Shown: positions 1 to 16,934 of the stretch, in pieces | Numbering within the stretch: the first letter of the stretch is position 1 | Layout of the letters: each line of letters starts with the position of its first letter | Position numbers and translations under genes: made by a program | From: a virus | IMG/VR virus record: IMGVR_UViG_3300025141_000664 | Location: 1-25,515 of that record | Length of the DNA: 25,515 bases | Strand: one strand, 5' to 3' | Notes under the pieces: generated by a model | Told to the model about the DNA's origin: nothing | The model's input: only the letters and a program-made list of their open reading frames with translations | Database searches by the model: none

Positions 1-1557
1 CGAAATCGAACTAAACTCAGGAAAAGCACTTCTACCAAAAATAAATTCAATGGAGGTCATAAAAGAATTTATTAATCTTTTCCACTGCTGATTAAGTTCA
101 AGCAATTCAACTTTGTTTCTTTTAAGGCGCGCTTGGATATTAAATCCCTTTGCTCCCATAGAGTCTGCAGCCGCCAGAAATTTATTATACTCTGTTAGGA
201 ACTTCGTCAATCTTTCGATCGTATAAGTAATCGCCGTGGTAGATAGATCAACCATTTCAATAACAGCCCTATACTCATAGGTCCCTATATCGTGATTCGC
301 CATATCTTGATCGGTCACAACAACATTGAGAACCTGTTTGTTGAGGCCCCGGAATTGGACCGGCCGTACGAGGCCGTTCCTAAGAGTGGCGATAAGCTTT
401 TCGGCAGAGGTGGAAGCAAGCTTTGTGTTGCTCCCACAAATATTTATTTTCCCAGGAGTTAACATATTGGGTTGTACATTGGCATTAATCCGAGAGCGCC
501 AGATTTGAATATTTTCTATCTTAAAACAACTCATAAGGGCATCCTCATTTTTGATAAGAAATCCTAATTTTGTATTTTCTCGGACGAGGCGCATATAATC
601 AATCGCAAAAGAAATTTTTAACTCATTATTTGCAGTGCGGGAATAAGAACAGTCAGAAACTTTACCTGGTTTTTTAATTATTTTGGCAGCTTTTTCTAGA
701 TCTTTGCGTTGCCTTAGTGTTAAAACCTGCGCAGAGGCGGGCGTATCCGAAAATGAAAGACCTCTTATGGCCTCAAGAAATCGAAAATCTTTAATCTTTT
801 GATTTGATACCAATTTGGCCGACAGTGGAGGATGCGATGCTTCTGTGTGAGATGCGCCGGCCATAAATCCCATTTCATCGTTGTAATGAATTGGGCCGGG
901 CCAAACTTCCCCAGCGCGACCGAAGCTTCTGTTGTCCCCCTCTAGCACAAAAACTGCACTTTTAAGGGGCGCGTCCGTATCAATCATAATTGTCTCTGTG
1001 GCCGGAGGGCTGATTTTCATGGCTTTTATTTTTCGATTGACGCCAGTTTTGTCGATTGTTTGAGGATCGGTAGCATAGGTGGTCACATACATATATAAAT
1101 CATCTAGCTCTTCGAGAAGGAACTTGTGAGTAAAGGTAAGAGCTTTTTTGAGCACTACTATAGAATTTTCTGATGCTTTGGGACTTGGGAGGACCCGGGA
1201 AAGACGGGCTTCACGGCCGGGACGTTCAAGATACCGCCTAATAATCCCTCCCTGAATTGTCTTTTTCGGGTCGCGAATTAAATTTTTAGCTATAGATTCA
1301 TCTTCCGTCATTTTCAGTAGTGGCCGAGGATTAGAGGAAAAGGCAACAAAAACTCTATAGGACCCATCAAAAATCTTACGTGATTGATAGAAAGCAGCTT
1401 TGCTCAGCGCTGGAGCTATAGTTTGCAACGAAAGTTCTATTTCTATTTCTTGTTCATCGGTGGTCCAATTACGAGGAAGAATTTTTATGTTTTCTATATA
1501 AGCCGAGGGTAGACCCAGGGAGATAGACGGATTAATCCCAGAAGTGGCAATCGTCAT
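1..1557 (-). CDS. Unrecognised phage structural protein, 3'-truncated by the window edge
   Basis: An open frame of 519 codons runs from ATG at 1555-1557 to position 1 with no stop, so the C-terminus lies outside the window. The start is well supported: it lies 1 nt after the stop of the upstream gene, and AGGAG sits 10 nt ahead of it. The protein begins MTIATSGINPSISLGLPSAY. No signal peptide or membrane segment is visible. A His-containing stretch near residues 221-245 (GPIHYNDEMGF, then ASHTEASHPPL) leads into KLVSNQKIKDFR. Basic helical stretches follow near 280-297 and 470-495, and two short beta-like segments, SFAIDYMRLVRENTKLGF (about 316-333) and YEYRAVIEMVD (427-437), look like repeating structural elements. 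I do not recognise the family. Its place as the last visible gene of a baseplate operon suggests a virion protein, which is inference only. Confidence 0.75.
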   Translation of the reverse strand, partial: MTIATSGINPSISLGLPSAYIENIKILPRNWTTDEQEIEIELSLQTIAPALSKAAFYQSRKIFDGSYRVFVAFSSNPRPLLKMTEDESIAKNLIRDPKKTIQGGIIRRYLERPGREARLSRVLPSPKASENSIVVLKKALTFTHKFLLEELDDLYMYVTTYATDPQTIDKTGVNRKIKAMKISPPATETIMIDTDAPLKSAVFVLEGDNRSFGRAGEVWPGPIHYNDEMGFMAGASHTEASHPPLSAKLVSNQKIKDFRFLEAIRGLSFSDTPASAQVLTLRQRKDLEKAAKIIKKPGKVSDCSYSRTANNELKISFAIDYMRLVRENTKLGFLIKNEDALMSCFKIENIQIWRSRINANVQPNMLTPGKINICGSNTKLASTSAEKLIATLRNGLVRPVQFRGLNKQVLNVVVTDQDMANHDIGTYEYRAVIEMVDLSTTAITYTIERLTKFLTEYNKFLAAADSMGAKGFNIQARLKRNKVELLELNQQWKRLINSFMTSIEFIFGRSAFPEFSSIS

Positions 1558-1558
1558 C

Positions 1559-2551
1559 TTAACAAGGCTCCTCATCAATGGTGGTATAAAGGTCTCTGTT
1601 GAACTTAAGCCGACTACCGTTGGAGGTAATATCTTGCGCTGTCATTCCTATAGTATTCATTATGTTATAGGGGAGTTCATCATCTAAATACAAATTGAAA
1701 TAATATTCAACATCTCCAACATTTGTTTTAGTATTCCCTAAAGGCTGCGGAGCAGAAATTGTGGTTGGTTCAGTTTTCATAAAGGACATTTGTTGTATAA
1801 CAGTGGTTCCAACAGCAGAACCAGTTCCTTCGGACTCAAAAAATACTTCAATTTCGAAGTTTTCTTTTTCAAAATTTGTATTTCCTTCAAGGATCTCTAA
1901 TACAAGAAAATCTTCGCGTAACGCCAAATAAAGATTAGGATCACTTCCTGGATCGGTAAAATGGCCACTAATTGCATCGGTCTCGAATTCGCCGGTGCGA
2001 AAAAAGATTTGATAATCTACGTCGATGTTTAACTGCGGGATTCGCGTAATTACTCCGTCCAGGAGGCCGGCTGTGCTGGAAGACGGGTTGGTAACGATGT
2101 ACTCTTGGGTCGAATCAATTGTATTATGAAGAGCGTTGATGGCCCAAGCTGCGGTTTTGTCCGATGACATATCTCCCGTCCCAATAGGATAAGATGAGTA
2201 ATTACTCCTTTCCGTAAAAGATTCCTGATGGAGGGCCTCGGTATTATTTGCTGGGTCTGAGCTGTTCCCGCCGAGGGCCCCTTCCACACTCGCAATAAAT
2301 CTAGTAACTCGTTCCTCAGCACTAGTTCGGGTTGGAATTACTTTCAAATTCGGAGTTTCATGCCGAATTCTTCGGTCGATATCATTTTGGGGTTCTGCGA
2401 GGGTTCCCGCATACTCAGAATTATACAAGATCTCATCATCGTAAAAACAATAATATACAGGATCGAGCTTTCCAAGAGACAGCAAATATTTCCCATATTC
2501 GGTCAATTGGACTTCAAGAATTTCTTCTTTCTTATTAAAAAACTCGGCCAC
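1559..2551 (-). CDS. Unrecognised 330-residue phage structural protein (GTG start)
   Basis: The frame opens with GTG at 2549-2551 and ends with TAA at 1559-1561. The GTG start is preferred because AGGAG lies 10 nt upstream and a second AAGG lies closer. The first in-frame ATG is only near residue 128, which would remove the distinctive N-terminus. That N-terminus (MAEFFNKKEEILEVQLTEYG, then KYLLSLGKLDPVYYCFYDDEILY) is rich in charged and aromatic residues and looks like a small conserved head domain. A Ser/Asn-rich middle (about 90-160) and a beta-rich C-terminal half (about 165-325, with FEIEVFFESEG and VEYYFNLYLDDELPY) follow. No enzymatic motif, signal peptide or membrane helix is visible. 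It starts 3 nt after the giant LamG gene and stops 1 nt before the next gene. I infer a baseplate or tail accessory protein and cannot name the family. Confidence 0.72.
   Translation of the reverse strand: MAEFFNKKEEILEVQLTEYGKYLLSLGKLDPVYYCFYDDEILYNSEYAGTLAEPQNDIDRRIRHETPNLKVIPTRTSAEERVTRFIASVEGALGGNSSDPANNTEALHQESFTERSNYSSYPIGTGDMSSDKTAAWAINALHNTIDSTQEYIVTNPSSSTAGLLDGVITRIPQLNIDVDYQIFFRTGEFETDAISGHFTDPGSDPNLYLALREDFLVLEILEGNTNFEKENFEIEVFFESEGTGSAVGTTVIQQMSFMKTEPTTISAPQPLGNTKTNVGDVEYYFNLYLDDELPYNIMNTIGMTAQDITSNGSRLKFNRDLYTTIDEEPC
1568..1572 (-). promoter_or_regulatory. Shine-Dalgarno AGGAG for the gene starting at 1557
   Basis: The minus strand reads AGGAG here, with a 10-nt spacer to ATG at 1557. 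The site lies inside the last codons of the upstream 330-residue gene, so the two genes are probably translationally coupled. Confidence 0.7.
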
Positions 2552-2554
2552 TTT

Positions 2555-5500
2555 TTACCTTCTCCTTCTGCGACGGCGACGGCGACGACGGGGTCTACCA
2601 CTAAATAGCCCTAATGGATCGAAAATTCGCTGTAATACTTGCCTCACACTACGCTGACGAGTTTGTGCGCGTCCTCGACGGCGACGATTGGCACGAGTGC
2701 GCCGCCGAGTAGGTCGCGGCGGGGCTGATCGTGTGGGCCTTGTCCGGGTCCGCGTTGTCGGGCGTGGGACAGCTCTACTAGTAGTACTGCGACGGCGTGG
2801 AATCGCCCTAGAAGCACTGGGGCGCCTTCGACGTCTGCGAGGCGGTCTCGGAGTTAGTGTCCCGGCAATAGCCGAATCAATAATCTCGGGGGGCGGAGAT
2901 ACGGCTGGGGGGATTTCCTCGGGAGCGGGGATAAACTCTCTTAAATCAGGATACACCGGTATTTCTTCTTCGTCTTCTGGTATTATATCTTCTGTGGTGT
3001 ATACGATGGTTTCGTCTATCTTGACTAGCTCCACAAAGGAGAAATAATCATAAGGCCAATTATAGGAATATTTGGTGTCAAGAGCCGGTTGGACAATGGG
3101 TAATCCTTCAGCTAAGCCCTTCCTGGTAAAGACATTGTAGTCTTTTTCGGCCCTTCTCTTAACTTTAAAAACCATCCACTGTAAGTTCTGATCGTTACCG
3201 AGCATCTGGTCGACCAAATCTGTGACTTGAATAAGCGCTGTGGATTTCTTGAATGTAGAGGCTATTCCGGGTGCGCAATTTTGCCAAATGTCCATCAGGT
3301 CTTTTTGAGTTAAATCTAAACTAAATTCAAATGCGTAGAATGCAATGGGCTTTACCGACCGATGTAATAAGAAATCAAATGTTGGTGGGAAAACGTACTT
3401 ATTCAAGAGGGCCAGTTGGGTCACATATTCTTGCGTGCGGAGGGGGACATCAAAGAATTTCCTGTCTCCCCTGACCGTGAGAAACGGCACACATACAATT
3501 GCTTCTTCGACTTTTTTAACCTCTGCAAAATCTCCAATTCGTTTTTGAGATGGTGTTATACCAACTATCTTTGTTAAGGGCTTCACATCAATAAAACCGC
3601 CGTAAGTGGAGGAACTATATTGCTGAGGCATGTCTCTAACAGACAAATGAATTCCTTCGGAGCCTGATGGGAGATTACCGTATTGATGCCACATGCCCCG
3701 AATGTATGGCTTGTTCTGCCAGGGGGCTACCCAGGCCGACAAGTCGCCGTCGGCGTCGTCGTTGAGCCTAACATAGAAGGGGGCGCCACCGCGCTCGTCG
3801 GTATCCCATGCTCCGCGGAGTCTAGAATATACATAACTGGGTGACGCTGAGGATGAAGCGGGGACACCAAAGAAGTTTAGCACTGGAGCTTCAAATTTAG
3901 GTTGGATAAGCCAACGCGCCTGTTGTGCGTTGGTATCGGGCGCAACAACCAGCAGTTTTTCGAAAATGTCAACACTTGAAGTAATTTGAGGTCTTACTAC
4001 ATCATAGCCCGGCGCATAAGATTTCAGGCGCAAGCGCTCCATGTTGGAGCCCACGAAGGTTTTTCCTTTACCAAGTACATTAATATCTGCCGAGTCCTTA
4101 ATAAATTCAGTAACACGATTGCCTAGGATATCATCCAATGTCGCTTTGCCCGAATAAGGAGCTTTGAAAATTATGTTGGCGACACATTGACCATACCAAT
4201 GAGGGGGGAGCCATGGCTCATAACTTATGAAGTCGCGGGTGCCGGTGCCGCCGGGAGAGCCCCTTAATTGTACTGCTGGGCCAAAAGCTGAATCTCGACT
4301 ATACATTCCAAACGTCTTTTCAAATGGAAAGCCAATCTCCGAAGCAGACAAATTGGTTCGTTCAAGCTTTATTTGCAATCCATAGTATTGATCTTTTTCA
4401 ACCGATAAAAATTCTTCCTCGGGCTTCGAAAGAAACGATTTAAGCGGCGTTTGGAAGAAATTTATTGTTTCGCAGAGGAAGTTATCTATACCCCACTTAT
4501 ACAACGGGCTACGAGAAGAGCCCTTGTACTGAATATGAGGTGTAGAACCATCGCTAGCTAGCCCCAAACTAGCACTGAACATTCCCGTATCGTACAAATA
4601 CATCTCTGGATGTAAGCCTGAAGCAACATTGCCTCCAGCAGATTGGATAGCTTCTTGAGACAGATAGACGTCGGGATCCCTTATGGCCTCAAAGGGTATT
4701 GGTTGACCATAGAAGCTGGGGTTGACGTCGTCCGAACCAATATACAAAGCCTTCGAGCCACTCGAAACAATTCTTAATGAATAAAATGGTGAATTCGTGT
4801 CCGCATTAGAGTCGACCTGGCCGAGATGGTGATAGCCCGTTCCATCCAGATTAGACTCACGATAGCCGCCCTGGCCGGAGGAAACGAGATTACCATTAAA
4901 AAGTGAAGAAGTAGTCGACACATCGTATGAGGAAGTGAATGTGAGGGCCCGAGCATTGTGGTTATCTCCGACGAGAACGAGACTGCTGCATGCAATTCCT
5001 GACTTAATGGTATTAAACAAAATTCCCGGAGCCATAAGTGGTTCTAATAGGATCCTTTTAGTAATTTTTTGGGCGCCGCGCCAGTAGCCAACGTTGGTTT
5101 TGGGAAAGGAATAAATGGGGCCAAGTGACTGCGATAACAATCGGCCGAGTTCTATCGTTCTTTCTGCTGGATAAAAGCCTTTATAGGGAAGGAACTGTAG
5201 AAGTGCGTCGCAACTCAGCTCTATGGTATGCCGTCGCATTTTTTCGCCGGCGGCGTTGGCTCTATCCGCAAGCTCTCCATCAACCACCTTAAAATACTTC
5301 ATAAAATCTGTCGCTGAATAAAGTTGGTAGAACTTTCCGTTCGAACTATCCGGCACCGTTGCCCCAGTTAAATTGAATATATTATCAAGCTTCGTAAGAA
5401 AATTGGTACCCTCTTCTTCTACGAATGTTCCCAAATGCTCACTAATTCTAAACTCTGGAACAATGGACATATTTTTGCCCAACAGTCTAATGGTTTTTGT

Positions 5501-8500
5501 ATAGTCGTCATAAGGTTGGTAGGGGGCCGAGGCCGATTCGTACGCTGTCCATCTTTGTCCACCAATAAGAAGGCCGCTCCCTTGAATAGCATTCGTGCTG
5601 CCTGTAACCGTTTGGCCGCCGCGAATAGGCATCGTATAAGCAAGCGACGCAGTTACACCACTAACTCCTTTAGTGGTATAATATCCAAATCGTGCATAAG
5701 TATTTTGAAGTTCGCCGGCGCCTGATCCCAGATAGCCGTCACCATCGGCTGCAGGCATCACGCCTCCGCCCTGTATCTGATAACCAGGCATACCACCGAC
5801 AAGACTTGCACCGCCCGCGCTAAGATCGGCACCAGTCAAGTTAAGGGGGGCATCGAGTGGCCATATGCTTTCGCCGGGCTCTAAGAAGCCTTGAGAATTG
5901 GGCACCGCAACAGGGGCAGCAGAACCAGTATAGCCGGAAGTAGATGGGCTGATATGCCCCGGAGACGGCATCGACCGAAGGCGCCGCACATCTTTCCAAA
6001 TGTCTGAAGTATCATACCTTTCTCTCTTGTTCACCTGTGGTTTGGTAGTATTGTGGGCCCGGGGAAAAATCTTTTGTCCATACCTCACGATCGTGCTTAA
6101 GCTGGAATCAAACGTATAATCAACTATTGCATTAAAAGCATTCCCTTCGGCAGGATTAATACGTCGGTTTAGACCGAGGCGCCAATTAAGCCCTTGGTTT
6201 GTAAAATAATCTAAATTATTTTGATAACTGACCTTCAATGTCATGTTATTGGCTTTATCCCCGCCGGCATTATCTTCAAAAGTAAACTCAATTGGTTTTG
6301 CCGTGTCATAAACTACTACCGGTTCTCTATAGTCAGTAAAATTATTAGATTTAAGGCCGCGGCCGAGGGGACGTCCATTGGATGCTCTTATTAAGGGAGG
6401 CGGATGAAGAAGGCCAATTAAATTGTTCTCTCTTAGTTTGCGCGCAACTGGATGGTCGCCCGTTCTGGTTTGCTTCCAAATCGGGTAACCGTAGGGACCG
6501 TGGCGTTGACGCAACATGTGATTAAACATGATAGGATGAAATGGAGCCGCCGGGACGAACTCAACATCGTTAAGCGCTCCGCCGTAGGAGACTGAACCGG
6601 TTGGGAAAACAGCATTAGTTGCGTATCGGGCACTATTTAAACCATCAGCAGAGAGGGGACTATTGTCCAGCCGGTTCCAATAAATTAAATGCGGAGAAGT
6701 TTGCGGAAAATGATTGAGGTCCGCCGTCATGCCACCCTCATACATTTCTTTTATGCCCGCGGCATCGGCGGCAGTGTTGGGATTAAATCCCCGAGAGTAG
6801 ATGGCTAGATCGGCTATCAAACCATTAAAACCGCTAGCGAAGTCTTTGGTGTCGTGGCCGATTCGGGCGCCGTAGGTACCAATTGCGTATGGATCGGTTA
6901 CAGCTACTCCGCCGCGGTCATGTACCCCGTTGATAAAGAGGTGCATGAGACCAGTTGCACCGCCCGTGAACGTGAACACAACATGATGCCATTCCTTGGT
7001 TCCCATCACAGAAGTTGATTCAATCTTTTGGGTTCCTTGGTTCCAGAGGATGCCGCGCAACATGAGATCGTCGGCATCTGCGCCACCGCCGCCTTTGCGG
7101 TCGATATACATCGACCTGAGGCCCTCATTGGAAGCCTCGCGACCAACAGAAAATATGTACCCGGCGTCGGTGCCGAAGGGTTCGAGGAGGTTAACCCATG
7201 CTGCAATAGTAAATGGCAATGCAGCAGCGTCGACGCCGCCAATCCAGCCGTCCCAGGAACTCGGGTCGCCGTATCCTACATCGACGCGAGCGCCGTCGCT
7301 TTTATTAAATTTCCCCACTGTTCTTGTTCTATGAATCGGAATATCAGTTGGGGGAGACTCAATGGTCCGTGGCTCACTAAGATATCCCAAAAGATGGGTT
7401 CCAACAGATGCAGACTCCACAATGGGAACGTGCCATGGCATAAACGGAAGCTGAGCATCATTATAATAAGGATCATAACTAGAAGTTTGGAGCCCAGTTA
7501 ATACCGATGCGCTTATGCAACTTGGAGCCTGGAGGCCGAAAATTCTAGGGCCGCTGGTTCCTGGGATGGCGCCCATGCCATCGAGGTAGGTCCAGCCCGC
7601 GCCGTCGGCGATCGGCGGCCTTTGATTAAGGCGCACCATCGATCCAGTAACCCAAGAATACTGTGATGTAGACCGAGGGATTTGATGCTGAATAAACTGG
7701 TTATCATAAAATCGTTCGGATATAACTTGCATTGGTGCAGTTTCCAGGCCTGTGCGAGATTTGGACTGACCTGGGATGTTATAGGGATATCTCGCCATGT
7801 CAAGGCCGCGCTGCATCACCATATATAAAGGGCGCAGGCTTTGGTCGATCGGCCCAGCGCCTTGAGCAACGCTTGTCTGGTTAGCGTGGTTAATGAGATT
7901 ATAATTGATACCCTGATCATCGAGGGGCCCGTCGCCGGCACTTGGGTCGAAACGTGCCCAGACGAGCAAGTTATCAGAGAGCAATCTCTGAGTAGACAAA
8001 GAATTGGCCGCGGGATATAAAGATTGATTAGTTATGGGAGCAATAACCCGATTGTTATACAAGGCGGTCACCTCATCAGGACCCAAGCACCGGTTCCAAA
8101 TCAAAATGTTAGCCATGGCGCCGTTCCAGTATCCCTGGCCAGCGGCGGAGTTGGAGGAACGGCCGAGGTACATGCCGGAAGCTATGGAGTCCGGGTCATC
8201 CAGGTTGTAGGCCCCCTCGGTCGTTGTATCGTCGACGGCATCAACGTAAATCCTCATACTAGGACTATCAGAGGCGCCACCAGGGTCACCGCCGGTGAAG
8301 GTTGCTACTATATGATACCAACGTTGGGCCTCTAAAGTACTCGTTTTACTCCAACCGGCCGTGTCGCCGGCGATGACGAATGAGATCTGGGATTCGGATG
8401 CCATAAAGCGCAAGTAGCGATCCCCGACGCCCCACTCAAAGAGGGTACCAGGTTCGCTAAGACCTACCTCATTTGCATAAACCCAAGCTGAAAACGTAAA

Positions 8501-11500
8501 CGGTTTTGCCTGGGCGCCGGATCCGCCCATGAGCTCGCCGAGGACCCCGGCCGTTGCACCTATATCGATACCAGAGCTGCTCCCATTAAACTCGCCGACA
8601 TAAAGATCAGTGGCTCTTATCCTATCTCTCGCATTCCTATTAGTTTTGTGATAGGCCGGAGACTTAACATAGGTATCAGCGAATACCTCGCCATAGGCGG
8701 GGTCCACGCCAAAAGGTCCACAATGGAGGGTTTCTAACTGTCTTAGGCCCCGCGTCCGTCCAAGTTGATCGACCACATGGATGGTGCCGGAAATATCTGA
8801 AGAATTTAGAGGATTTGTGCGCTGCGGAGGCATCCCAGACCCGGTGGCTGGCCAACCAGTACCACCAAAATTAAGCGTGAGCGGACTTCTATAAGGGGTG
8901 GCATTATAAACCGAGAACTCTTCGTGGGCTGGGTCCATGTAGCCTCGGGACCTCACTTCATAGCCGGCGCCGCCGGCGGTGAAGCGATTTACAATGATTG
9001 ATTGGTTAGAGTCTGCACCCATGCGGGCCGGAAGAGAGTAGTCTAAATTGCCGCTTACATTTTCTGTTAAGCTGCCTATAGCACCATACTGCAGAGAGCC
9101 AGATTTATTCCGATCTATGCCACCGTTTGACATAGAAGTGTCAAACCCTGTATATGCTGGGTTCGTCAGATTTATAACATCGTATATGGGCTGACCAGCA
9201 GCTGTAAAGCTGTCGCCCGGGTAATCTCCTAAGGGATACCATCTCAAAAGACCGGCTGGTGTCTCCCTTTGTGGATTTGCGCGCGCCCCACCATTATAGA
9301 TTGTTTTTATTTCAGCCGCGGATAAAACCCTATCCCAAACGACAAAGTCACACATATTGCCGCTCCAAAAATAAGAAGAGCCGCCGCGGGCGCCTAGGTA
9401 GCAGTCCGAGGTCTCGATATCATCGCGGTTCTGAGTATACGTAACACTATTATTTAAAGCACCATCGATATAGAGATTCATGGTGCCAGCATTATATTGT
9501 GTAACCACATGGTACCATCTATCAGGCTCGATGCTCCCGCTGGTGCTGTCTAATCTTCGCGACCAGGGTGAGGCGGTGATAGTCACTTGAAATTGAATGT
9601 GAGTAGGCCAGGATGCTCCATCTATACTAAGATTGACGTCATGGTTTCCAAAGTTCCAGATCTTGCCGGCATTGGTAGGGTTGCCGGAGTTGTTGCTGCG
9701 GTTCTTAATCCAGCAGGAGATAGTGAAATTTTTAGCGCTAGCTCCAGTGCCGCCGATGAGGGGGTTCCACTCCTCGTGGTCGCCCAGATCGACGAAGTTT
9801 TCGCCAGCCGAGTCCAAAAGTATTGAATTACCCAAAGGAGGCGCGAGGGGGAATCTTCCGCGAGTTGCCAGTGTCTCAGGAGTCAACGCAAAATTGAATG
9901 ATTGGTCGTTAAAGAAGGGATCGTTTTTCTCGCGCGCATTGCTTTGAACAACCTCATAATTCTTTGTATAGTTGCCGATAGGGCCATGAGCCAATACGCC
10001 AGAAAGACTGGTTCCCACAGAAGATGTGGTCATCTTAACATTTTGGATATTAACCGGGCGCTTTGTTCCAACATTTCGCAAACGATGCCCGGTGGGGATG
10101 TCTTTGTTAAAGCCGTCGCTACTGGCAGCATCGTCATAATTCGGCGGAACGATACCAAGCATCGGCGTCAAAAAGCTCTGGTGGCCGCCGCCAGTAAAAT
10201 CCGTTACATCAACTATAGCAGGGCCGCTGACGTTTGCAAGAGCGGTGGCAACATTACCAATAACCCCAACAGTGTCCATAGTAAGTGTAAGTTGAGTGTT
10301 GCTTGAACCTTCGGCTGCCGTAATGCCCGAGACGCCTGCAGTGCCTCTTGAACCAGCACTCGCCGGGATTATACGAGAATTAGAAGTATTATTTATAGCT
10401 CTTTTGATCAAGGTTGCGATGCTCGAATCTGATTCGCCAAGAATACCAATACCAATTTGATCTGCAGCGGCTGGAGTACCAGTGGTTTCTGAGGCATCTA
10501 AAAGTATTGTGATTGCGCCAGCGCCGCCCGTAGTATCCCCGCCATTTGCTGCAGGAATCGTAATCGTAATCGTACAATCGCCGCCATCTGCAACTACACC
10601 AGTTGTATCAATTGCATCTACTGCGGTTGCGGCAGCGTTGTCCGCGGAAGCCACATGATCAAATTTGAGTTTCCAGCCTTCTGCACGATAAAGAGAATTA
10701 TCAGAGCCCTGGTTCAATTCGGTATGGCGATACTGGCGGCCTCCTACATACTTCTCTGGGAAGGGGCCCTGCATCGGCGAATCGCTATTATTCACAATGT
10801 CGTGATGAAGGTTGGTAATCTCTATTTCTGGTGCGTAATTCTCGATAACCTGCAGGTTCTGCCCGGTCGTAACCGAAGAAGAGTAAATACTGAAGGGGGC
10901 CAAGAGGTTGCCGTCCCCCTTATGAAGAGTGCTATCTGCTCGATTGATGTCGGGGTTCATTTGGAAACCAAGACGTTGCTTATAGGTAGGCCAATATACA
11001 TCTTTGGTGTCTATTAGCTCTTCAACTTCGTTACGGAAGCCTACCATCACATTTTTTGCGGCGCGGCCGCGAAGGCCTCCGAATGGAGAAGTTGCTACGA
11101 ACACAAAGTCAACTTTCTTATTAATACCAAACCCTACTCCACCAAGAGTAGAATTACCTTCAGCCCCAAATTTGTAAGGAGTCTGCTGTGCTCTGGAGTT
11201 CGACTCTATAGTAGACTTGAGTATCACTTGCTTATTTTTAAGGGCAGCAGGGTCAATATCGGGGGTCGGCTCCACCAGCGCGAGAGTATTTCTCGCCGCT
11301 TCCGCTCGCCACCAAATAGAATTCCTATCTAAAGGTCCGAAGGCTTCTCCCAACTCTGGCGGAGGAGCGTGCTGAAATTTCCAATTTCTAAAATTGACTG
11401 GTTGTGATGAACCAATTTGTCGCCTGCCTTGTGCGTTTGCAGAGTAAAACCCAGTTCCAGTAGCATCACTGTCCGGGGAGGCGTCTTGAACCGCGCTGAG

Positions 11501-14500
11501 GTCAATGGGCTGGAGGATCCCTTCGGGATCGCCAAGTTGCTTCTTAACATTTTGAAACTTACTTTGATACTTGCTGCGTTCCAGCATATGGCTCTCAATG
11601 ATGGTGCGAACATTCTCTGCAAAATCAGCAGAGGCCGGGACAAGCTGTTGGAGCATTACCGTTAATGAAGAGTCAAACCACTTATAGAACTCATAGAATT
11701 TTTCAAAATCAATTTCGGTGTTGCCGACTCTTTCGAAGAAGCGTTGGCGCAGAAGTTTCAAGCCCTTATATTCTGGCCGGTAACGATTTACAGGAGCTCC
11801 GATAAGGTTATTAACATCTTTGAGAGTGGCAAAGTAGTTAATCATCTCCGCCGAAAGTGCTTGGGCCATACTCTTTTCAAACGCAAAGAAGTAATTTATG
11901 GGTCTCGAATCTCGTGTAAGTATCTTTTGTTCCTGGGCGCCCAAAACTGTCACCATGTCGCTAGACTGTACGTTCTCGGGCAGTTGAAGCTTTGAAGAAA
12001 TCACATGGTCTTTGTCGACCACCTTTATTGACGAGGCCTTGAAGTTCTGACCTTTACCGGGGAACTGTATACCCAGGAAATTTCCAAGCCAGTCGAATCT
12101 TGAGCCAGCTGTGACAGCCGAACCGGAATACTGATCTATAACAGTGAACTCGCCGGAGGCATTAGAACCAGTATTCTGGGAAAACTCCCAGTTAAACATT
12201 AGAGTATCGGCTTTTAGTACCTCGCCAAAGGAGGCAGAAGGAAGAAACGGAAACGCATAACGATGCGGCTGTAAGGAACCATAATTTAAGGTGTCAAAGG
12301 CATGGCCGACAAGAGTAGCATCCTCCACATAATCTAACCAATAGCGACAGGCGTTAACTTTGACATCCGACGTTTCTAAAATTGAGCCGGTGAAATTAGT
12401 CCTATGCGCGCCGATGTAGGCTCTCTTGCTGCCGGTTACAAACCCGACGGGGGCGCCGGGAACATCGCCAGTTAAGGTGAATTCGTTTCTTACGACTCCA
12501 GCATCTAACTGCACACCGTGGAGTTCTATAACATAGTTACTGATTTCGCCAACAGCAGGAGCACCCAGCACCTGGCCGGCTTGAGGGTAATTTACTGGCT
12601 TGATACGTACTGCCAAATTCCAATATGTGTTGTCATAAACTTCTTCATAAAGATCGGATACCAGTGGGGGCACCCTTCCGCCAGCAGTTCCTGTGAGCAC
12701 AAATCGAACGCTATCAGAAGTTAACTCATCTCGAACAGCGTAAACTTGGAAATTTGTGGTATCCGTTGGGGATGTTCCCCACGTGGTAAAATCTTCTGAA
12801 TCATGGGCTGTATGCACACCAAAGAGGGAAGCACTTATAGTATTTGTATTATAATAGAATGAGGCGCCTTCATCGGGCTTGAGGGGGAAGAGAATGTCCG
12901 CCTCTAACGTCGTTGCAAATCCGCCGCTGAGTCTCGTGTTGGCAGGTATAAATCCTGTGGTGTTGGTAGTGTCTGCGGGATCTTGAAACTGGAATACAGT
13001 GCCGCCTCGATTATCTTCGGTATTAAAATCGATAAATTTGTCTACAACCGAAACAGTGCGCCGATTGTCTCGAATCTCATATTCAATTCCATTAGCATAC
13101 ATATTCAGTTTGACGAGCTCGTCGTCAATGCCGAAACAACGAATCAGATTACGGAAGGCCTTTTCTGTTCCTTTTGTCTTGTAAATGTAAACTAAGTTGT
13201 TGTAGATATTCTGATAAATAGTGTTCTTGACGTCTGCTAGTGATTTTTCGTACAGTCTGTCCTCGCTGCGATCAGCTAGCTTTTCCAATACGTCGGCATC
13301 GATAAAGAGCTCGGGAGCCATAAGACCCGAAGATCTTAATAAACGATCTGCGAAGGGCAATGGCTTCTGGCTGCCAGAAGCATAAGTTATGTCTTTTAGA
13401 TTAGATAATGATTCAACCTGAAGCTGTAAAGTGTCAAAATAACTTGACATTATTTGAATAAGTTGTTTTAATTGCCTCTGTCCTTCTTCGTCCTCTTCAG
13501 TAATCCACGACGGAATAGAATTATATATGGCCGCATTATTGTTAATATCATATTCAGAACCAGTTAACTGCAGTCGGTTGGCAAGTCCCGATACTTCAGG
13601 ATGGAAGGCGTAGATGATTGGATCTTTAAACTCTTTAATCGCAGCATTTGATAATACAATCGCTGAGCCGGTTGCGCGAGAGTCAGAGGTGTAGCCTGTC
13701 CAGGTACCATTGCTAATGCGGCCAGAATAATCAAGAACCACTGAATCAGTGGCCGCTACTCCTGTGATTCCTTCATTGAATTTATAGTAAACACCCAAGT
13801 TGGTGTTAGCTTTTTCACGAGTTTCTTTAAAAGGCTTCGGATCATCATTTGTGCCGCCGCCGACTTGAGTAAACCAATGGCGGCCGATCTGTTGGCCGCT
13901 ACGCTCGGTTTTCCAATAACGAAATTCATCCAACGAGGCCGAGAGTTTGCCGGCATATGCTGCAGCCGAGGAGCTTGCGGGTGTTGCAATCAGAGCACCA
14001 ATGTTTGCTCGCAACGCTCCCGTAACTTCATTAAGGTCCATTGAGGTGCCAAAAACGGCAGAATTATTCAAAGTTCCGTCTAAATAAAAATTACTTAAAA
14101 CGCCGTTAGAAGCTGACATTAAGGTAAGACCATAATGGTGCCACACGCCGTCGGCAACAGCTTCGCTAGTAACGGTGCTGGCGGCTACCGATTGTGCCTC
14201 AAAACCGTTAGAACCGGATAGTACTGTTAAACGAAAGCAATCCGCGCCGGAGGCACCAGTTAGTTCTAATCTAAGACGCCCATAACCGTTGCCAGAGCCG
14301 GCGGTGATGTCAGCTACATCAACTACGCTAACACCACTGACATCTGCAAATACACTGGCATCGTTCCAAGCCGCCCCACCATGATCCATAGTAAATGTAA
14401 TTTGGGTATTGCTGCTGCCCTCGGTTGCCGTCATGGGTGGCACACCGTATTGGCCCCTTCCAGAAGGTGCGTAAATTATACGAGAATTGGAGGTACCATT

Positions 14501-15379
14501 TATGGCTCTTCGGATTAAAGTTGCAATACTCGAATCTGATTCGCCGTTGATGCCAATACCAATCTGATTAGCGGCCGGGGGGGTACCAGTCGTTTCCGAG
14601 GCATCTAAAAGTATTGTGATTGCGCCTGCACCCCCTGTGGCATCTGCATTGGGGACCTCAAGACGAATGTTAAACGAGCAATCAGCCCCAGATGCAGCCA
14701 CGCCAGTTGTATCAATTGCGTCTGTTGCTCCGGCTTTAGTCAGCTCCCTGCCATTCCAAAGATCGAAAATAACTTCTTTTTCTGTCTTTGCGGTGTCAAA
14801 AGCCTCCTTTTTGAGCCAAAACTCAATAGAAACGCCCTTGCTTAATAAATCAAACTTTAAATTATTTTCCCGATTTAAGGCAGGCTCATAATAATTTGCC
14901 CCCGTAAACTGAGTCGAATAGGGGATCATCCCGTCCGGATTAGGATGAGGTCCGCCTTTAAGATAAATGTATTCTAAATCGGCAGGGAGACCATAGCCCT
15001 CTGAAATCGAACTTTGGGTGCCCCACTCGCCGGCGGATAAATTAATGTAGCCGTTAGTTCGTGGATACTCTTTATCAAATACATGAAGGTCTAAGTAGGT
15101 GCAGCTATTTTCCCATTCCAGCCTCTCTTTAAGGGAGCCGTCATAAGGATACTCTTCATAAATTTTTCTTAAGGCTAGGGAGTAATACTCTTCCGCTGAG
15201 CCGTATCGAGCAAAGTTTTTAGGGAATTTAAAATTGGCCCGTGGTATAAAGCGCTCTTCGCGGATTATATCCTCGGCGTGGTACCCAGCAGACTCTACCT
15301 CATCGCCGATTTGAGCGGCCGATTTGTCAGATAGTGCTTGGATAGACTTTGCTTTATCGTAATAGTCCTTAAAACCCAT
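2555..15379 (-). CDS. Giant (4274 aa) baseplate protein: gp7/tail-protein-I-like N-terminal part, five LamG-type modules, Arg-rich tail
   Basis: The uninterrupted frame starts at ATG 15377-15379 (an in-frame TAG lies two codons upstream, so it cannot start earlier) and stops with TAA at 2555-2557. Residues 1-165 form an N-terminal region with YPYDGSL and FDKEYPRTNGYI. A LamG fold (about 165-510) is split by an inserted module (217-361). Residues 620-770 include IYQNIYNNLVYIYKTKGTEK and AFRNLIRCFGI, a pattern like the tail-protein-I/gp7 family (helix, Y-x-x-K-G-T, short helix, G). A diverged LamG-like domain spans about 795-1015, and a helical segment about 1155-1280. A second copy of the inserted module is at 1586-1731. 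Three further LamG domains lie near 1852-2035, 2262-2450 and 2689-2890, each with the W-Y/H-H-V strand and a Y/F-I-D/N-G-type hairpin. A long beta/mixed region follows, then an acidic Pro-rich stretch (4131-4168) and an Arg-rich tail. T4 gp7 is about 1000 residues, so this is a great expansion. Placement after gp25 and gp6 genes supports a wedge role, with LamG modules likely binding host glycans (inference). A side-fibre or adhesin role is the alternative. Confidence 0.85.
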   Translation of the reverse strand: MGFKDYYDKAKSIQALSDKSAAQIGDEVESAGYHAEDIIREERFIPRANFKFPKNFARYGSAEEYYSLALRKIYEEYPYDGSLKERLEWENSCTYLDLHVFDKEYPRTNGYINLSAGEWGTQSSISEGYGLPADLEYIYLKGGPHPNPDGMIPYSTQFTGANYYEPALNRENNLKFDLLSKGVSIEFWLKKEAFDTAKTEKEVIFDLWNGRELTKAGATDAIDTTGVAASGADCSFNIRLEVPNADATGGAGAITILLDASETTGTPPAANQIGIGINGESDSSIATLIRRAINGTSNSRIIYAPSGRGQYGVPPMTATEGSSNTQITFTMDHGGAAWNDASVFADVSGVSVVDVADITAGSGNGYGRLRLELTGASGADCFRLTVLSGSNGFEAQSVAASTVTSEAVADGVWHHYGLTLMSASNGVLSNFYLDGTLNNSAVFGTSMDLNEVTGALRANIGALIATPASSSAAAYAGKLSASLDEFRYWKTERSGQQIGRHWFTQVGGGTNDDPKPFKETREKANTNLGVYYKFNEGITGVAATDSVVLDYSGRISNGTWTGYTSDSRATGSAIVLSNAAIKEFKDPIIYAFHPEVSGLANRLQLTGSEYDINNNAAIYNSIPSWITEEDEEGQRQLKQLIQIMSSYFDTLQLQVESLSNLKDITYASGSQKPLPFADRLLRSSGLMAPELFIDADVLEKLADRSEDRLYEKSLADVKNTIYQNIYNNLVYIYKTKGTEKAFRNLIRCFGIDDELVKLNMYANGIEYEIRDNRRTVSVVDKFIDFNTEDNRGGTVFQFQDPADTTNTTGFIPANTRLSGGFATTLEADILFPLKPDEGASFYYNTNTISASLFGVHTAHDSEDFTTWGTSPTDTTNFQVYAVRDELTSDSVRFVLTGTAGGRVPPLVSDLYEEVYDNTYWNLAVRIKPVNYPQAGQVLGAPAVGEISNYVIELHGVQLDAGVVRNEFTLTGDVPGAPVGFVTGSKRAYIGAHRTNFTGSILETSDVKVNACRYWLDYVEDATLVGHAFDTLNYGSLQPHRYAFPFLPSASFGEVLKADTLMFNWEFSQNTGSNASGEFTVIDQYSGSAVTAGSRFDWLGNFLGIQFPGKGQNFKASSIKVVDKDHVISSKLQLPENVQSSDMVTVLGAQEQKILTRDSRPINYFFAFEKSMAQALSAEMINYFATLKDVNNLIGAPVNRYRPEYKGLKLLRQRFFERVGNTEIDFEKFYEFYKWFDSSLTVMLQQLVPASADFAENVRTIIESHMLERSKYQSKFQNVKKQLGDPEGILQPIDLSAVQDASPDSDATGTGFYSANAQGRRQIGSSQPVNFRNWKFQHAPPPELGEAFGPLDRNSIWWRAEAARNTLALVEPTPDIDPAALKNKQVILKSTIESNSRAQQTPYKFGAEGNSTLGGVGFGINKKVDFVFVATSPFGGLRGRAAKNVMVGFRNEVEELIDTKDVYWPTYKQRLGFQMNPDINRADSTLHKGDGNLLAPFSIYSSSVTTGQNLQVIENYAPEIEITNLHHDIVNNSDSPMQGPFPEKYVGGRQYRHTELNQGSDNSLYRAEGWKLKFDHVASADNAAATAVDAIDTTGVVADGGDCTITITIPAANGGDTTGGAGAITILLDASETTGTPAAADQIGIGILGESDSSIATLIKRAINNTSNSRIIPASAGSRGTAGVSGITAAEGSSNTQLTLTMDTVGVIGNVATALANVSGPAIVDVTDFTGGGHQSFLTPMLGIVPPNYDDAASSDGFNKDIPTGHRLRNVGTKRPVNIQNVKMTTSSVGTSLSGVLAHGPIGNYTKNYEVVQSNAREKNDPFFNDQSFNFALTPETLATRGRFPLAPPLGNSILLDSAGENFVDLGDHEEWNPLIGGTGASAKNFTISCWIKNRSNNSGNPTNAGKIWNFGNHDVNLSIDGASWPTHIQFQVTITASPWSRRLDSTSGSIEPDRWYHVVTQYNAGTMNLYIDGALNNSVTYTQNRDDIETSDCYLGARGGSSYFWSGNMCDFVVWDRVLSAAEIKTIYNGGARANPQRETPAGLLRWYPLGDYPGDSFTAAGQPIYDVINLTNPAYTGFDTSMSNGGIDRNKSGSLQYGAIGSLTENVSGNLDYSLPARMGADSNQSIIVNRFTAGGAGYEVRSRGYMDPAHEEFSVYNATPYRSPLTLNFGGTGWPATGSGMPPQRTNPLNSSDISGTIHVVDQLGRTRGLRQLETLHCGPFGVDPAYGEVFADTYVKSPAYHKTNRNARDRIRATDLYVGEFNGSSSGIDIGATAGVLGELMGGSGAQAKPFTFSAWVYANEVGLSEPGTLFEWGVGDRYLRFMASESQISFVIAGDTAGWSKTSTLEAQRWYHIVATFTGGDPGGASDSPSMRIYVDAVDDTTTEGAYNLDDPDSIASGMYLGRSSNSAAGQGYWNGAMANILIWNRCLGPDEVTALYNNRVIAPITNQSLYPAANSLSTQRLLSDNLLVWARFDPSAGDGPLDDQGINYNLINHANQTSVAQGAGPIDQSLRPLYMVMQRGLDMARYPYNIPGQSKSRTGLETAPMQVISERFYDNQFIQHQIPRSTSQYSWVTGSMVRLNQRPPIADGAGWTYLDGMGAIPGTSGPRIFGLQAPSCISASVLTGLQTSSYDPYYNDAQLPFMPWHVPIVESASVGTHLLGYLSEPRTIESPPTDIPIHRTRTVGKFNKSDGARVDVGYGDPSSWDGWIGGVDAAALPFTIAAWVNLLEPFGTDAGYIFSVGREASNEGLRSMYIDRKGGGGADADDLMLRGILWNQGTQKIESTSVMGTKEWHHVVFTFTGGATGLMHLFINGVHDRGGVAVTDPYAIGTYGARIGHDTKDFASGFNGLIADLAIYSRGFNPNTAADAAGIKEMYEGGMTADLNHFPQTSPHLIYWNRLDNSPLSADGLNSARYATNAVFPTGSVSYGGALNDVEFVPAAPFHPIMFNHMLRQRHGPYGYPIWKQTRTGDHPVARKLRENNLIGLLHPPPLIRASNGRPLGRGLKSNNFTDYREPVVVYDTAKPIEFTFEDNAGGDKANNMTLKVSYQNNLDYFTNQGLNWRLGLNRRINPAEGNAFNAIVDYTFDSSLSTIVRYGQKIFPRAHNTTKPQVNKRERYDTSDIWKDVRRLRSMPSPGHISPSTSGYTGSAAPVAVPNSQGFLEPGESIWPLDAPLNLTGADLSAGGASLVGGMPGYQIQGGGVMPAADGDGYLGSGAGELQNTYARFGYYTTKGVSGVTASLAYTMPIRGGQTVTGSTNAIQGSGLLIGGQRWTAYESASAPYQPYDDYTKTIRLLGKNMSIVPEFRISEHLGTFVEEEGTNFLTKLDNIFNLTGATVPDSSNGKFYQLYSATDFMKYFKVVDGELADRANAAGEKMRRHTIELSCDALLQFLPYKGFYPAERTIELGRLLSQSLGPIYSFPKTNVGYWRGAQKITKRILLEPLMAPGILFNTIKSGIACSSLVLVGDNHNARALTFTSSYDVSTTSSLFNGNLVSSGQGGYRESNLDGTGYHHLGQVDSNADTNSPFYSLRIVSSGSKALYIGSDDVNPSFYGQPIPFEAIRDPDVYLSQEAIQSAGGNVASGLHPEMYLYDTGMFSASLGLASDGSTPHIQYKGSSRSPLYKWGIDNFLCETINFFQTPLKSFLSKPEEEFLSVEKDQYYGLQIKLERTNLSASEIGFPFEKTFGMYSRDSAFGPAVQLRGSPGGTGTRDFISYEPWLPPHWYGQCVANIIFKAPYSGKATLDDILGNRVTEFIKDSADINVLGKGKTFVGSNMERLRLKSYAPGYDVVRPQITSSVDIFEKLLVVAPDTNAQQARWLIQPKFEAPVLNFFGVPASSSASPSYVYSRLRGAWDTDERGGAPFYVRLNDDADGDLSAWVAPWQNKPYIRGMWHQYGNLPSGSEGIHLSVRDMPQQYSSSTYGGFIDVKPLTKIVGITPSQKRIGDFAEVKKVEEAIVCVPFLTVRGDRKFFDVPLRTQEYVTQLALLNKYVFPPTFDFLLHRSVKPIAFYAFEFSLDLTQKDLMDIWQNCAPGIASTFKKSTALIQVTDLVDQMLGNDQNLQWMVFKVKRRAEKDYNVFTRKGLAEGLPIVQPALDTKYSYNWPYDYFSFVELVKIDETIVYTTEDIIPEDEEEIPVYPDLREFIPAPEEIPPAVSPPPEIIDSAIAGTLTPRPPRRRRRRPSASRAIPRRRSTTSRAVPRPTTRTRTRPTRSAPPRPTRRRTRANRRRRGRAQTRQRSVRQVLQRIFDPLGLFSGRPRRRRRRRRRRR
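2558..2848 (-). other. Arginine-rich C-terminal tail of the giant protein
   Basis: By my count 43 of the last 104 residues (4171-4274) are Arg and none is Lys. There is a run of six Arg (4181-4186), clusters such as PRRRS, PTRRRTRANRRRRGR and RQRSVRQ, a short hydrophobic island IFDPLGLFSG, and a terminal run of eleven Arg. The first run uses CGC, AGA, CGT, CGA, AGG and CGC, so the amino acid appears to be selected rather than a DNA repeat. The composition recalls protamine-like or nucleic-acid-binding arms, but no function is established for it here. Confidence 0.8.
2562..2566 (-). promoter_or_regulatory. Shine-Dalgarno AGGAG embedded in arginine codons
   Basis: The last four codons of the giant gene are AGA AGG AGA AGG, followed by TAA and then the GTG start of the next gene. 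These codons create AGGAG 10 nt before GTG at 2551, and an additional AAGG closer in. The preceding seven arginine codons are all CGN, so the switch to AGR codons coincides with the need for a ribosome-binding site. Confidence 0.75.
2876..2989 (-). other. Acidic, proline-rich spacer before the Arg-rich tail
   Basis: Residues 4131-4168 are dominated by Glu, Asp, Pro and Ile (PEDEEEIPVYP, PAPEEIPPAVSPPPEI). It directly precedes the arginine tail, giving a sharply charge-segregated, probably disordered C-terminus. Confidence 0.7.
6710..7315 (-). other. LamG/concanavalin-A-like module (giant protein residues about 2689-2890)
   Basis: Typical LamG order is visible: GKFNKSDGARVDVG, then LPFTIAAWVNL, then IFSVG, then EWHHVVFTFTGG, then LMHLFINGVHD, then ARIGHDTKDFASGFNGLIAD and IYSRG, ending in IKEMYEGG. 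A post-LamG strand, HLIYWNRLD, follows. Family knowledge: such jelly rolls bind glycans or proteins, often with calcium. The ligand is unknown here. Confidence 0.8.
8030..8596 (-). other. LamG/concanavalin-A-like module (residues about 2262-2450)
   Basis: It shows the same order as the neighbouring module: GEFNGSSSGIDIG, KPFTFSAWVYANE, LFEWGVGDRYLRF, RWYHIVATFTGG, MRIYVDAVDD, MYLGRSSNSAAGQGYWNGAM and ILIWNRCLGPDEVTALYNN, followed by NLLVWARFD. Confidence 0.82.
9275..9826 (-). other. LamG/concanavalin-A-like module (residues about 1852-2035)
   Basis: Visible elements are NFVDLGDHEEWN, KNFTISCWIKNRSNN, IWNFGNHDVNLSIDG, DRWYHVVTQYNAG, MNLYIDGALNNSV, CYLGARGGSSYFWSGNM and FVVWDRVLSAAEIKTIYNGG, followed by LLRWYPLGD. 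It is a canonical full-length LamG-3-type jelly roll. Confidence 0.85.
10187..10624 (-). repeat. Second copy of a duplicated module of about 145 residues (residues 1586-1731)
   Basis: This copy begins AVDAIDTTGVVADGGDCTIT and contains the same 20-residue core (TGGAGAITILLDASETTGTP) as the first copy at 14297-14731, plus GESDSSIATLI and EGSSNTQ. A 29-nt stretch at 10491-10519 is identical to 14598-14626. It is flanked by non-LamG sequence (WKLKFDHVAS before, HQSFLTPMLG after), so it has been placed in an unrelated loop of the same protein. Confidence 0.85.
12335..12997 (-). other. Diverged LamG-like domain (residues about 795-1015)
   Basis: The order of elements is LamG-like: TTLEADILFPL, SLFGVHTA, FQVYAVRD, VRFVLTG, NTYWNLAVRIKPV, YVIELHGVQLDAG, RAYIGAHRTNFTGSIL, then VKVNACRYWLDYV. 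It lacks the W-H-H-V strand and is more diverged than the other modules, so the assignment is weaker. Confidence 0.55.
13070..13492 (-). other. Tail-protein-I/gp7-like helical segment (residues about 630-770)
   Basis: A helix-rich segment reads YFDTLQLQVESLSNLKD, then ADRLLRSSGL, then DVKNTIYQNIYNNLVYIYKT, then KGTEKAFRNLIRCFGI. The arrangement resembles the conserved N-terminal part of P2 gpI, Mu gp48 and related wedge proteins, where helices precede a Y-x-x-K-G-T turn and a short helix ending in G. The match is by eye, and the location just after gp6 supports it. Confidence 0.5.
13850..14887 (-). other. First LamG module, interrupted by an inserted module (residues about 165-510)
   Basis: LamG strands are present on both sides of the insertion. 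Before it are LLSKGVSIEFWLKKEA and KEVIFDLWNG. After it are YGRLRLELTG, GVWHHYGLTLMSAS, LSNFYLDGTLNNS, ANIGALIA, YAGKLSASLDEFRYWKTERS and a post-domain strand NLGVYYKFNEG. The inserted module (217-361) lies between the second and third recognisable strands. Confidence 0.75.
14297..14731 (-). repeat. First copy of the duplicated module, inserted inside a LamG fold (residues 217-361)
   Basis: It begins ATDAIDTTGVAASGADCSFN and ends VVDVADITAG. It shares a 20-residue identical core with the copy at 10187-10624 (residues 248-267 here, 1617-1636 there) and clear similarity over its whole length. The nucleotide identity extends to a 29-nt exact match (14598-14626). The composition (G, T, A, D, few aromatics) suggests a small Ig-like or beta-rich domain. 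I do not recognise a named family. Confidence 0.85.
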
Positions 15380-15389
15380 GTTCTAATTA

Positions 15390-16934
15390 TCAGTCAACTC
15401 TAAATTTAAACGTTTGTGGCTGTTCTTGCCATGCACCTATACTATCATTATAATAGGATAAATTTATCCTATACATATATCCCGGTTCTAATAGCGACAT
15501 GTCTAAATCGAAGTAATTACCTTCCTTATCGTAAGACAAATAAGTACTATAACTGGATCCAGTCCCATACGGGATCGCGTTATAGTCATCCGTGGTGCGC
15601 CGGATGTTATATGAAGCACTAGTGATAATTTGTGTGGGATTATTGGCTGTCGCCTTCACATAAATCGTTGGATTCCAATTTCTATCGCGAACAAAAAACC
15701 TGAAACGCGCTGTGTCGCTCGTAGAATAAGACTTTTTAAGGTTTCTGCAATTCGTTATTTGAGTAAAGGTTGGCGCCGAATCATAGGTGGGCATGTGCTC
15801 TGGGAAAATAGAGCCTGTAAAATACTGGATTGTCCCAAGAGTATGCGGGCCGCCGCTGGACTGGTTATGCCATACATCATACATAACAGTCAACCCCTTT
15901 GGTAGCTCCGTCGAAAGTGCAGCGGTTATGGCCATCTCGGCGGAATAAACACCCCTGGACACCCAAGAAGCTGTCGTATTGAGATTGCCGTCATATAGAG
16001 TTAACTTTGAGCCGGTAGGAGCTGTCGAACCTGAAAAAAGGGAAACCATCAGAGTACTCCCGGCCTCAACCACTGGAATATTTACCAAGCGCCCACGGAT
16101 ATAATTGTATAAATATAGTTTATTAATATTGTCCTGAGCCGGCGCCAGTGAGCTAGAATAATAGAAATTTTCTCGATCGTCTGAAACACGCGAATCCCAG
16201 CGGGCCTCAATCACAGGCCGCTTGAAGAAAAATTCGCTAGATCTCGCAAAAAACTTCTTGGTATAATAAGATTGCTGTGCACCATTCGTATTGTTGATAA
16301 TTTTTCCTGTGTCGGCCCCCGTAGAACTAGAAAAATAAGCTTCCTCACTAGCTGTTAACCGCAAGCCCAACCCATAATTGCTGTAGGTGCCGTCAACCCA
16401 CTGTTCTACAATACGAGTTATGTCTAATTCAACGTCTTCAAAGCCCTGTGCAAAATTAATAGTATAAGTTGAACCCGGATCCTGCGTGATATAATCTCCC
16501 CCAATGTTGGTCCACGTGGTAGAGTCATCGGACTTGATCCAATTAGAGGCTCCCAGATCCTGGTAATTGTCCATGTCAAGTCCGGTTCCCTCTACCCAAG
16601 AGCGCGAAACCGGTGCCACAGTCAAATTAAAGTCCTGTGGAAGAGTAAACGGATGAGCGGCGTTAAACATCCTAAGATAGAAGGATACGCTTCCGCTAGC
16701 TGGGATAGTGCCGGCCGTTCTATCGGCCGTAATAGAAGTAATCGGGAATCGTACTAGAGTTCTCGATAGTTCCTGGGATTGTCCCGTCGTGCCCGATACT
16801 TGTCCATAAATTGAAAAGATTTCTAATGAATCGGCATAACCCATATTTGAGCCAGTTCCACGGGTAGCAAGATCCGCTTCAAAAGCATTTGTGATAGTAT
16901 TGTCGATGTCTGCGACATACCTGGCAATTGCCAT
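15390..16934 (-). CDS. Baseplate-associated protein with DNRLRE/CBM96-like beta-sandwich
   Basis: The frame runs from ATG 16932-16934, overlapping the TAA of the upstream gene by one base (TAATG), to TGA at 15390-15392, giving 514 residues. A weak AAGGA lies 11 nt before the start. Residues 35-200 follow the DNRLRE pattern closely: SRTLVRFPI (strand), SVSFYLRMFNA, TVAPVSRSWVEGTG, a Trp-containing loop (NWIKSDDSTTWTNIGGDY), then FEDVELDITRIVEQWVDGTY and SNYGLGLRL. In bacteria this module is found on surface and polysaccharide-active proteins. The remaining 300 residues are beta-rich (LTLYDGNLN, ARFRFFVRDRNWNPTIYV, GYMYRINLSYYN) and unassigned. There is no signal peptide, consistent with a virion component. 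It lies between gp6-like and gp7-like genes, so it is probably a wedge-bound decoration or fibre-attachment protein (inference). Confidence 0.75.
   Translation of the reverse strand: MAIARYVADIDNTITNAFEADLATRGTGSNMGYADSLEIFSIYGQVSGTTGQSQELSRTLVRFPITSITADRTAGTIPASGSVSFYLRMFNAAHPFTLPQDFNLTVAPVSRSWVEGTGLDMDNYQDLGASNWIKSDDSTTWTNIGGDYITQDPGSTYTINFAQGFEDVELDITRIVEQWVDGTYSNYGLGLRLTASEEAYFSSSTGADTGKIINNTNGAQQSYYTKKFFARSSEFFFKRPVIEARWDSRVSDDRENFYYSSSLAPAQDNINKLYLYNYIRGRLVNIPVVEAGSTLMVSLFSGSTAPTGSKLTLYDGNLNTTASWVSRGVYSAEMAITAALSTELPKGLTVMYDVWHNQSSGGPHTLGTIQYFTGSIFPEHMPTYDSAPTFTQITNCRNLKKSYSTSDTARFRFFVRDRNWNPTIYVKATANNPTQIITSASYNIRRTTDDYNAIPYGTGSSYSTYLSYDKEGNYFDLDMSLLEPGYMYRINLSYYNDSIGAWQEQPQTFKFRVD

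Follow-up and report, generated by a model that had tools for sequence, protein, structure and literature searches.

The giant protein of the baseplate operon in the window (the whole stretch of viral DNA analysed here, 25,515 nucleotides) ends in an arginine-rich arm that is real and selected at the protein level. The reading we favour, and hold tentatively, is that a disordered polybasic arm, specific to the lineage, makes electrostatic contacts, the host envelope being the most likely target; its function is inferred from its charge, its pattern of conservation and its place in a baseplate operon. The positions of the relevant features are given in Table 1.

Table 1. Features of the window related to the arginine-rich arm and its gene neighbourhood.
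Feature	Position	Strand	Description
Third gene	1..1578	(-)	Truncated at the edge of the window; its homologues frequently have Gly/Arg/Lys-rich tails with GY or SY at the end
Next gene	1559..2551	(-)	330 aa; start served by the Shine-Dalgarno sequence in the Arg tail; acidic ..DEEPC end in the family
Giant baseplate-operon protein bearing the tail	2555..15379	(-)	4274 aa; concanavalin/LamG domains inside; downstream of gp25 and gp6 homologues
Arg-rich C-terminal arm	2558..2869	(-)	Residues 4171-4274; 43 Arg, 0 Lys; predicted disordered, pLDDT mostly below 60
Terminal Arg11 run	2558..2590	(-)	R4264-R4274; Arg9 at the same place in L024
Shine-Dalgarno AAGGAG of the downstream gene	2562..2567	(-)	Inside AGA AGG AGA AGG, the final four Arg codons
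Short conserved element VRQVLQRIFDPLGLF	2603..2647	(-)	Residues 4245-4259; L024 counterpart VAETLRRIFDPLGLF
First six-Arg run	2825..2842	(-)	R4180-R4185; CGC AGA CGT CGA AGG CGC, five different codons
Conserved C-terminal core domain	2870..5401	(-)	Diagnostic of the family; rich in beta structure and modelled with high confidence
Acidic linker with conserved PDLREFIPAP	2921..2995	(-)	Residues 4129-4153; between folded core and arm
Helical region with KTKGTEK..RNLIRCFGI	13088..13603	(-)	Homologous to the protein at the same operon position in cultured phages (hmmsearch; hhalign to immuto gp109)
gp6-type baseplate wedge subunit	16934..18730	(-)	PHROG baseplate wedge subunit, E=4e-20
gp25-type baseplate wedge subunit	18756..19139	(-)	PF04965 GPW_gp25, E=6e-12

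The giant protein and its operon

The giant protein is a member of a large uncultured phage family, which is defined by the C-terminal core and has more than 500 members in IMG/VR; no match to this core was found in the cultured-phage and plasmid records searched. Sequence and fold searches of the PDB with the core gave no convincing match, a result that does not imply a novel fold. In one 165-kb relative, the head protein, portal, and terminase are those typical of tailed phages. Distant relatives were detected on two MAG contigs (WOR-3 and Euryarchaeota) and are uninformative on the host. An Rfam search returned nothing.

According to the PHROG and Pfam matches of P0003 and P0006, the gene of the giant protein is located directly with gp25 and gp6 homologues, as is characteristic of gp7/gpI-type wedge genes, and the order gp25-gp6-giant is also present in relatives, in Flavobacterium phage immuto, and in Microcystis phage Mel-JY01. 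This operon location and the shared gene order bear out the baseplate placing that had been proposed from the letters of the window alone. Searches of the candidate gp7/gpI region against Pfam, NCBIfam, and PHROG gave no match, and its detected homology goes no further than its syntenic counterparts in immuto and Mel-JY01. In the N-terminal model, a lectin-like domain was the only part matched, the helical parts being of low confidence. We call the giant a baseplate wedge-operon protein; an equivalence to T4 gp7 or P2 gpI would be one of position, family and fold matches giving no confirmation. Four stretches of the protein are covered by a Laminin_G_3 match (E=9e-61).

The syntenic proteins of the two cultured phages, immuto gp109 and Mel-JY01 WWT39511, resemble the giant in following gp25 and gp6 and in carrying a homologous KTKGT region. 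Unlike it, they are 1265 and 1336 aa long, respectively, and have neither the conserved C-terminal core nor a basic tail. About 250 nt of the giant gene are duplicated, at positions 10368-10624 and 14475-14728; the two copies lie 4.1 kb apart and are 75-81% identical.

Composition and origin of the arm

The sequence-only reading had described 43 Arg and no Lys among the last 104 residues, 11 consecutive Arg at the end, and five different codons in the first six-Arg run, all of which agrees with a count over residues 4171-4274 and with the codons listed in Table 1. The span that it had assigned to the tail, 2558-2848, is Arg-rich as stated, but comprises 97 residues with 42 Arg, since R4177 (2849-2851) falls just outside. 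The Arg density of the arm is 41%, while Arg accounts for 4.7% of the protein body (binomial log10 P = -28.9 for the arm against the body). In a comparison of 381 ORFs of at least 150 aa from the window and ten related contigs, 104-residue segments comparable in Arg were found in orthologues of the giant alone, with 42 Arg on the L025 contig and 36 on the L009 contig; all others had at most 21. In the AlphaFold2 model, the core is confident and the tail is of low confidence, with a weakly predicted helix at model residues 903-927, up to RIF, and the arm is predicted to be intrinsically disordered.

The use of Arg codons is indistinguishable between tail and body (chi-square p=0.52 in the window and p=0.27 in the related phage L024), and GC3 is not raised in the tail (0.40 versus 0.46 in the body). 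Base-by-base (mononucleotide) shuffles of the tail DNA yielded 13 Arg on average, the highest count being 25. The only tandem DNA in the arm is an 18-nt (GCGACG)x3, equal to (CGTCGC)x3, within the last Arg run, and the terminal Arg run of L024 has no such repeat. Given this single tandem, a codon use equal to that of the body, the unraised GC3, and shuffles that fall short, expansion of a DNA repeat was rejected, and selection at the protein level, as originally claimed, is the better account; the synonymous divergence around a conserved motif, described below, points the same way.

The earlier reading had also named a frameshift or assembly error in this GC-rich stretch as something that would overturn its claim. 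Local GC content is indeed 62% versus 48% in the body, and in one relative, L022, the basic stretch lies in another frame, as might be expected of such an artefact. However, the frame of the arm is continuous with the conserved core, its Arg codons follow body usage, and the same architecture recurs in another phage that was assembled twice separately, as L024 and L025; the two assemblies show 14 differences in 18.9 kb, and both bear the Arg tail. The recurrence of the same kind of tail in separate assemblies makes an error of either kind extremely unlikely, and it was rejected for the window and L024, while for L003 and L022 it is possible. In the latter two, a basic ORF of 16 codons, MIQSRRRRTVRTTRKK, lies in another frame, its ATG overlapping the stop codon of the giant; this could be either a frameshifted tail or a tail produced as a separate peptide.

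Tails of related proteins

C-termini were read in 105 distinct relatives among the matches listed, which are ranked by similarity and so biased towards near relatives; a tail was considered strongly basic when the last 60 residues carried a net charge of +10 or more. Thirteen of these relatives have strongly basic tails and 11 mildly basic ones, 81 are neutral or acidic, and many terminate right after the core. On the core tree, the window belongs to a well-supported clade of nine, seven of which are basic, with tails that are Arg-rich (the window and L024), mixed, or Lys-rich (e.g., L021 and L032). Charge stays in this clade while sequence, length, and the choice between Arg and Lys change. 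Its non-basic members are L027, which has no tail and ends at the core, and L022, which ends without a basic tail. L197, a 91% relative of the window's phage, breaks off ahead of the tail.

Elsewhere in the tree, basic tails are present in L036, L058/L062, L054, L059, and L182, and the basic-tail label requires five changes on the core tree. Short basic ends, RRRRR in L159 and RRRRK in L051, are present in two further members of a 15-row clade. A sister clade (L028, L029, L049, and L160) has a conserved helix-like end of its own, YTEAEATAILNDLNN, with the pattern YT[ED]AEATA[IV]LNDLN, and a variant of this end precedes the RRRRR of L159.

The expectation of a tail conserved in composition and not in sequence is therefore borne out in the nearest clade and fails across the family, since most of the relatives read end soon after the core or in a neutral or acidic tail. 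The short or neutral to acidic ends of most relatives count in part against the original claim, which had treated homologues without a basic tail as contrary evidence. The arm is a lineage-specific add-on, repeatedly gained or lost, in which charge is kept and sequence is not. With 81 of the 105 relatives showing not even mild basicity in the tail, and with L027 terminating at the core, the machine itself can do without the arm.

A conserved element before the terminal arginines

The protein of the window ends in LQRIFDPLGLFSGRP-Arg11, and those of L024 and L025, which share about 47% identity with it in the C-terminal part, end in LRRIFDPLGLFTP-Arg9. All eight residues of IFDPLGLF are identical between the window and L024, while six of the eight codons are synonymously different; the element is therefore old and under selection, and not the result of recent transfer. 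Its conservation argues for a specific contact, beyond charge alone.

A search of the viral collection for a relaxed motif with an Arg run revealed the L024/L025 phage as the sole other match. IFDPLGLF was found in 21 viral stretches elsewhere, mostly in short or unrelated frames. A podovirus protein adjoining ejection-type genes (L113, 5553-6365, minus strand) ends in ..KKIFDPLGLFS, which was treated as a probable chance resemblance. L021 and L022 are nearer to the window and yet have no IFDPLGLF element, through either loss or recombination, which are indistinguishable here. The 9-mers before DPLGLF, VRQVLQRIF and VAETLRRIF, have high helical hydrophobic moments (0.79-0.86), and the arm thus combines cationic character with an amphipathic element in the manner of cell-penetrating segments.

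Possible function of the arm

In the reading that we favour, several copies of the arm per baseplate would form a flexible, positively charged fringe, which would attach electrostatically to a polyanion external to the virion. This polyanion would most likely be the host envelope, through LPS phosphates, acidic capsule, or teichoic acids. The arm would aid low-specificity docking while the LamG domains would provide sugar contacts, and in the phage of the window and L024 the amphipathic RIFDPLGLF may add a specific or membrane-surface contact beside the Arg run. The retention of charge amid turnover of sequence, length, and Arg/Lys choice is what would be expected for a low-specificity charge contact; together with the disorder, the LamG domains, and the baseplate context, it favours such a contact, and the latter two make an envelope contact plausible at the place of the arm.

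Protamines and the C-terminus of the hepadnavirus core protein are Arg-dense, disordered, terminal tails that bind nucleic acids. The arm is like them in Arg density, disorder, and terminal position, having 43 Arg in 104 residues of low pLDDT, and the term protamine-like used in the sequence-only reading is apt for its composition; the likeness goes no further. One could hypothesise that phage DNA or host RNA is bound by the arm, for instance while the virion is being assembled, as a protamine or an Arg-rich capsid tail does, since its Arg density is within the range of Arg-rich nucleic-acid binders and its polybasic stretch is predicted to be disordered. However, unlike those tails, the arm is part of a tailed-phage baseplate-operon protein, and nucleic-acid contact is unexpected from this position. 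The gene sits in the wedge operon, away from the head and genome-contact proteins, DNA would not be expected at wedge positions judging from the T4 baseplate architecture, and domain searches found no DNA-binding domain. The location in the wedge operon makes nucleic-acid binding less likely, and we regard this function as quite improbable.

Among known systems, the tape-measure-related contractile-injection-system effector Tme of Streptomyces davawensis has a long cationic, CPP-like segment with 32% Arg, and both this segment and the arm are Arg-rich and cationic and are carried by proteins of phage-tail-like machines (PMC11126660). The Tme segment differs from the arm in its length of 250 aa, its location on a tape-measure-related nuclease effector, and the 8.8% Lys mixed in (PMC11126660); no sequence relation between the two is expected. 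This precedent, the high hydrophobic moment, and the weak helix predicted at the same stretch would suit a membrane-active arm, whose poly-Arg and amphipathic RIFDPLGLF insert into or disturb the host membrane on contact or firing. Such an activity is rather unlikely, since RIFDPLGLF occurs with an Arg run in two known phages only, other members with Lys/Ser-rich tails lack the element, and the helix prediction is of low confidence; within the lineage of the window, the arm may act on membranes. The bolder proposal, that LxRIFDPLGLF-x(2-4)-Arg(9-11) is a new terminal module, is unlikely. It would be a contact-triggered device for membrane-surface contact or partner docking, kept by selection across diverged phages and making the baseplate rim a cationic, membrane-active fringe.

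Descriptions of charged disordered arms on phage baseplates appear to be scarce, and none was found in the literature searched. The present family, with hundreds of environmental members, provides a case in which arms come and go and charge is kept while sequence turns over. With closely related natural versions that have or lack the arm, non-specific electrostatic adsorption can be put to the test.

Overlap with the next gene and acidic neighbours

The next gene starts with GTG downstream of the AAGGAG within the Arg codons, which provides an example of a coding tail and a ribosome-binding site sharing DNA. The last four Arg codons are all AGR in both the window and L024 (hypergeometric p 0.004 and 0.009, respectively), whereas the Arg codons in the rest of the arm are mostly CGN, and this switch at the end is common to L024. 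The length of the Shine-Dalgarno match is alike for basic and non-basic tails, with means of 4.5 and 3.9 nt, and pressure from this site was therefore rejected as the whole cause of the arm. The overlap explains codon choice at the very end, and not the arm.

A related possibility is that the tail is a near-neutral disordered extension, its basic bias arising by drift with the help of the purine-rich ribosome-binding site required at the 3' end. The high variability and frequent absence of the tails and the overlap of the Shine-Dalgarno sequence with the last four codons agree with this. Nevertheless, drift is a very unlikely explanation: the strength of the site is similar with and without basic tails, it covers four of the 43 Arg codons, these being AGR and the remainder mostly CGN, and an IFDPLGLF with six of eight codons changed would not persist by drift.

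The product of the next gene has an acidic ..DEEPC end with a terminal Cys, and most relatives have an acidic C-terminus, often EEPC. An internal clamp could accordingly be proposed, in which the arm and the short element dock onto an acidic baseplate partner and lock the wedges together; the candidate partners are the giant's own acidic linker, the ..DEEPC tail, and the acidic end of a 2.1-kaa protein encoded in the window. The conserved PDLREFIPAP linker appears together with the arm: the basic members of the near clade have it, as does L022, and tail-less L027 has neither linker nor arm. The acidic C-termini of the neighbouring proteins, the resemblance of IFDPLGLF to a docking peptide under strong selection, and the sister clade's own conserved helix-like terminus are consistent with docking as well. 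However, the ..DEEPC tail occurs just as well in phages whose giant lacks a basic tail, no covarying partner was found, and a dedicated interface should keep more sequence than is observed. A clamp is thus possible rather than probable, and the acidic C-termini of the two neighbouring virion proteins may provide an internal partner; low-specificity contact with the envelope is the reading we prefer.

A shared charge of the arm and the tail of the third gene's product (P0007 homologues) was considered and rejected (rho 0.20, p 0.058, no phylogenetically independent support). Homologues of the third gene's product often end in GGY, GSY, or LGY, and several of them are strongly basic (L026 and L058). 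The 2.1-kaa protein (19161-25514, minus strand) contains a peptidoglycan-binding region, a hydrophobic GIVYLLLMLL stretch, and an acidic end, and several of its near relatives also end in ..EC.
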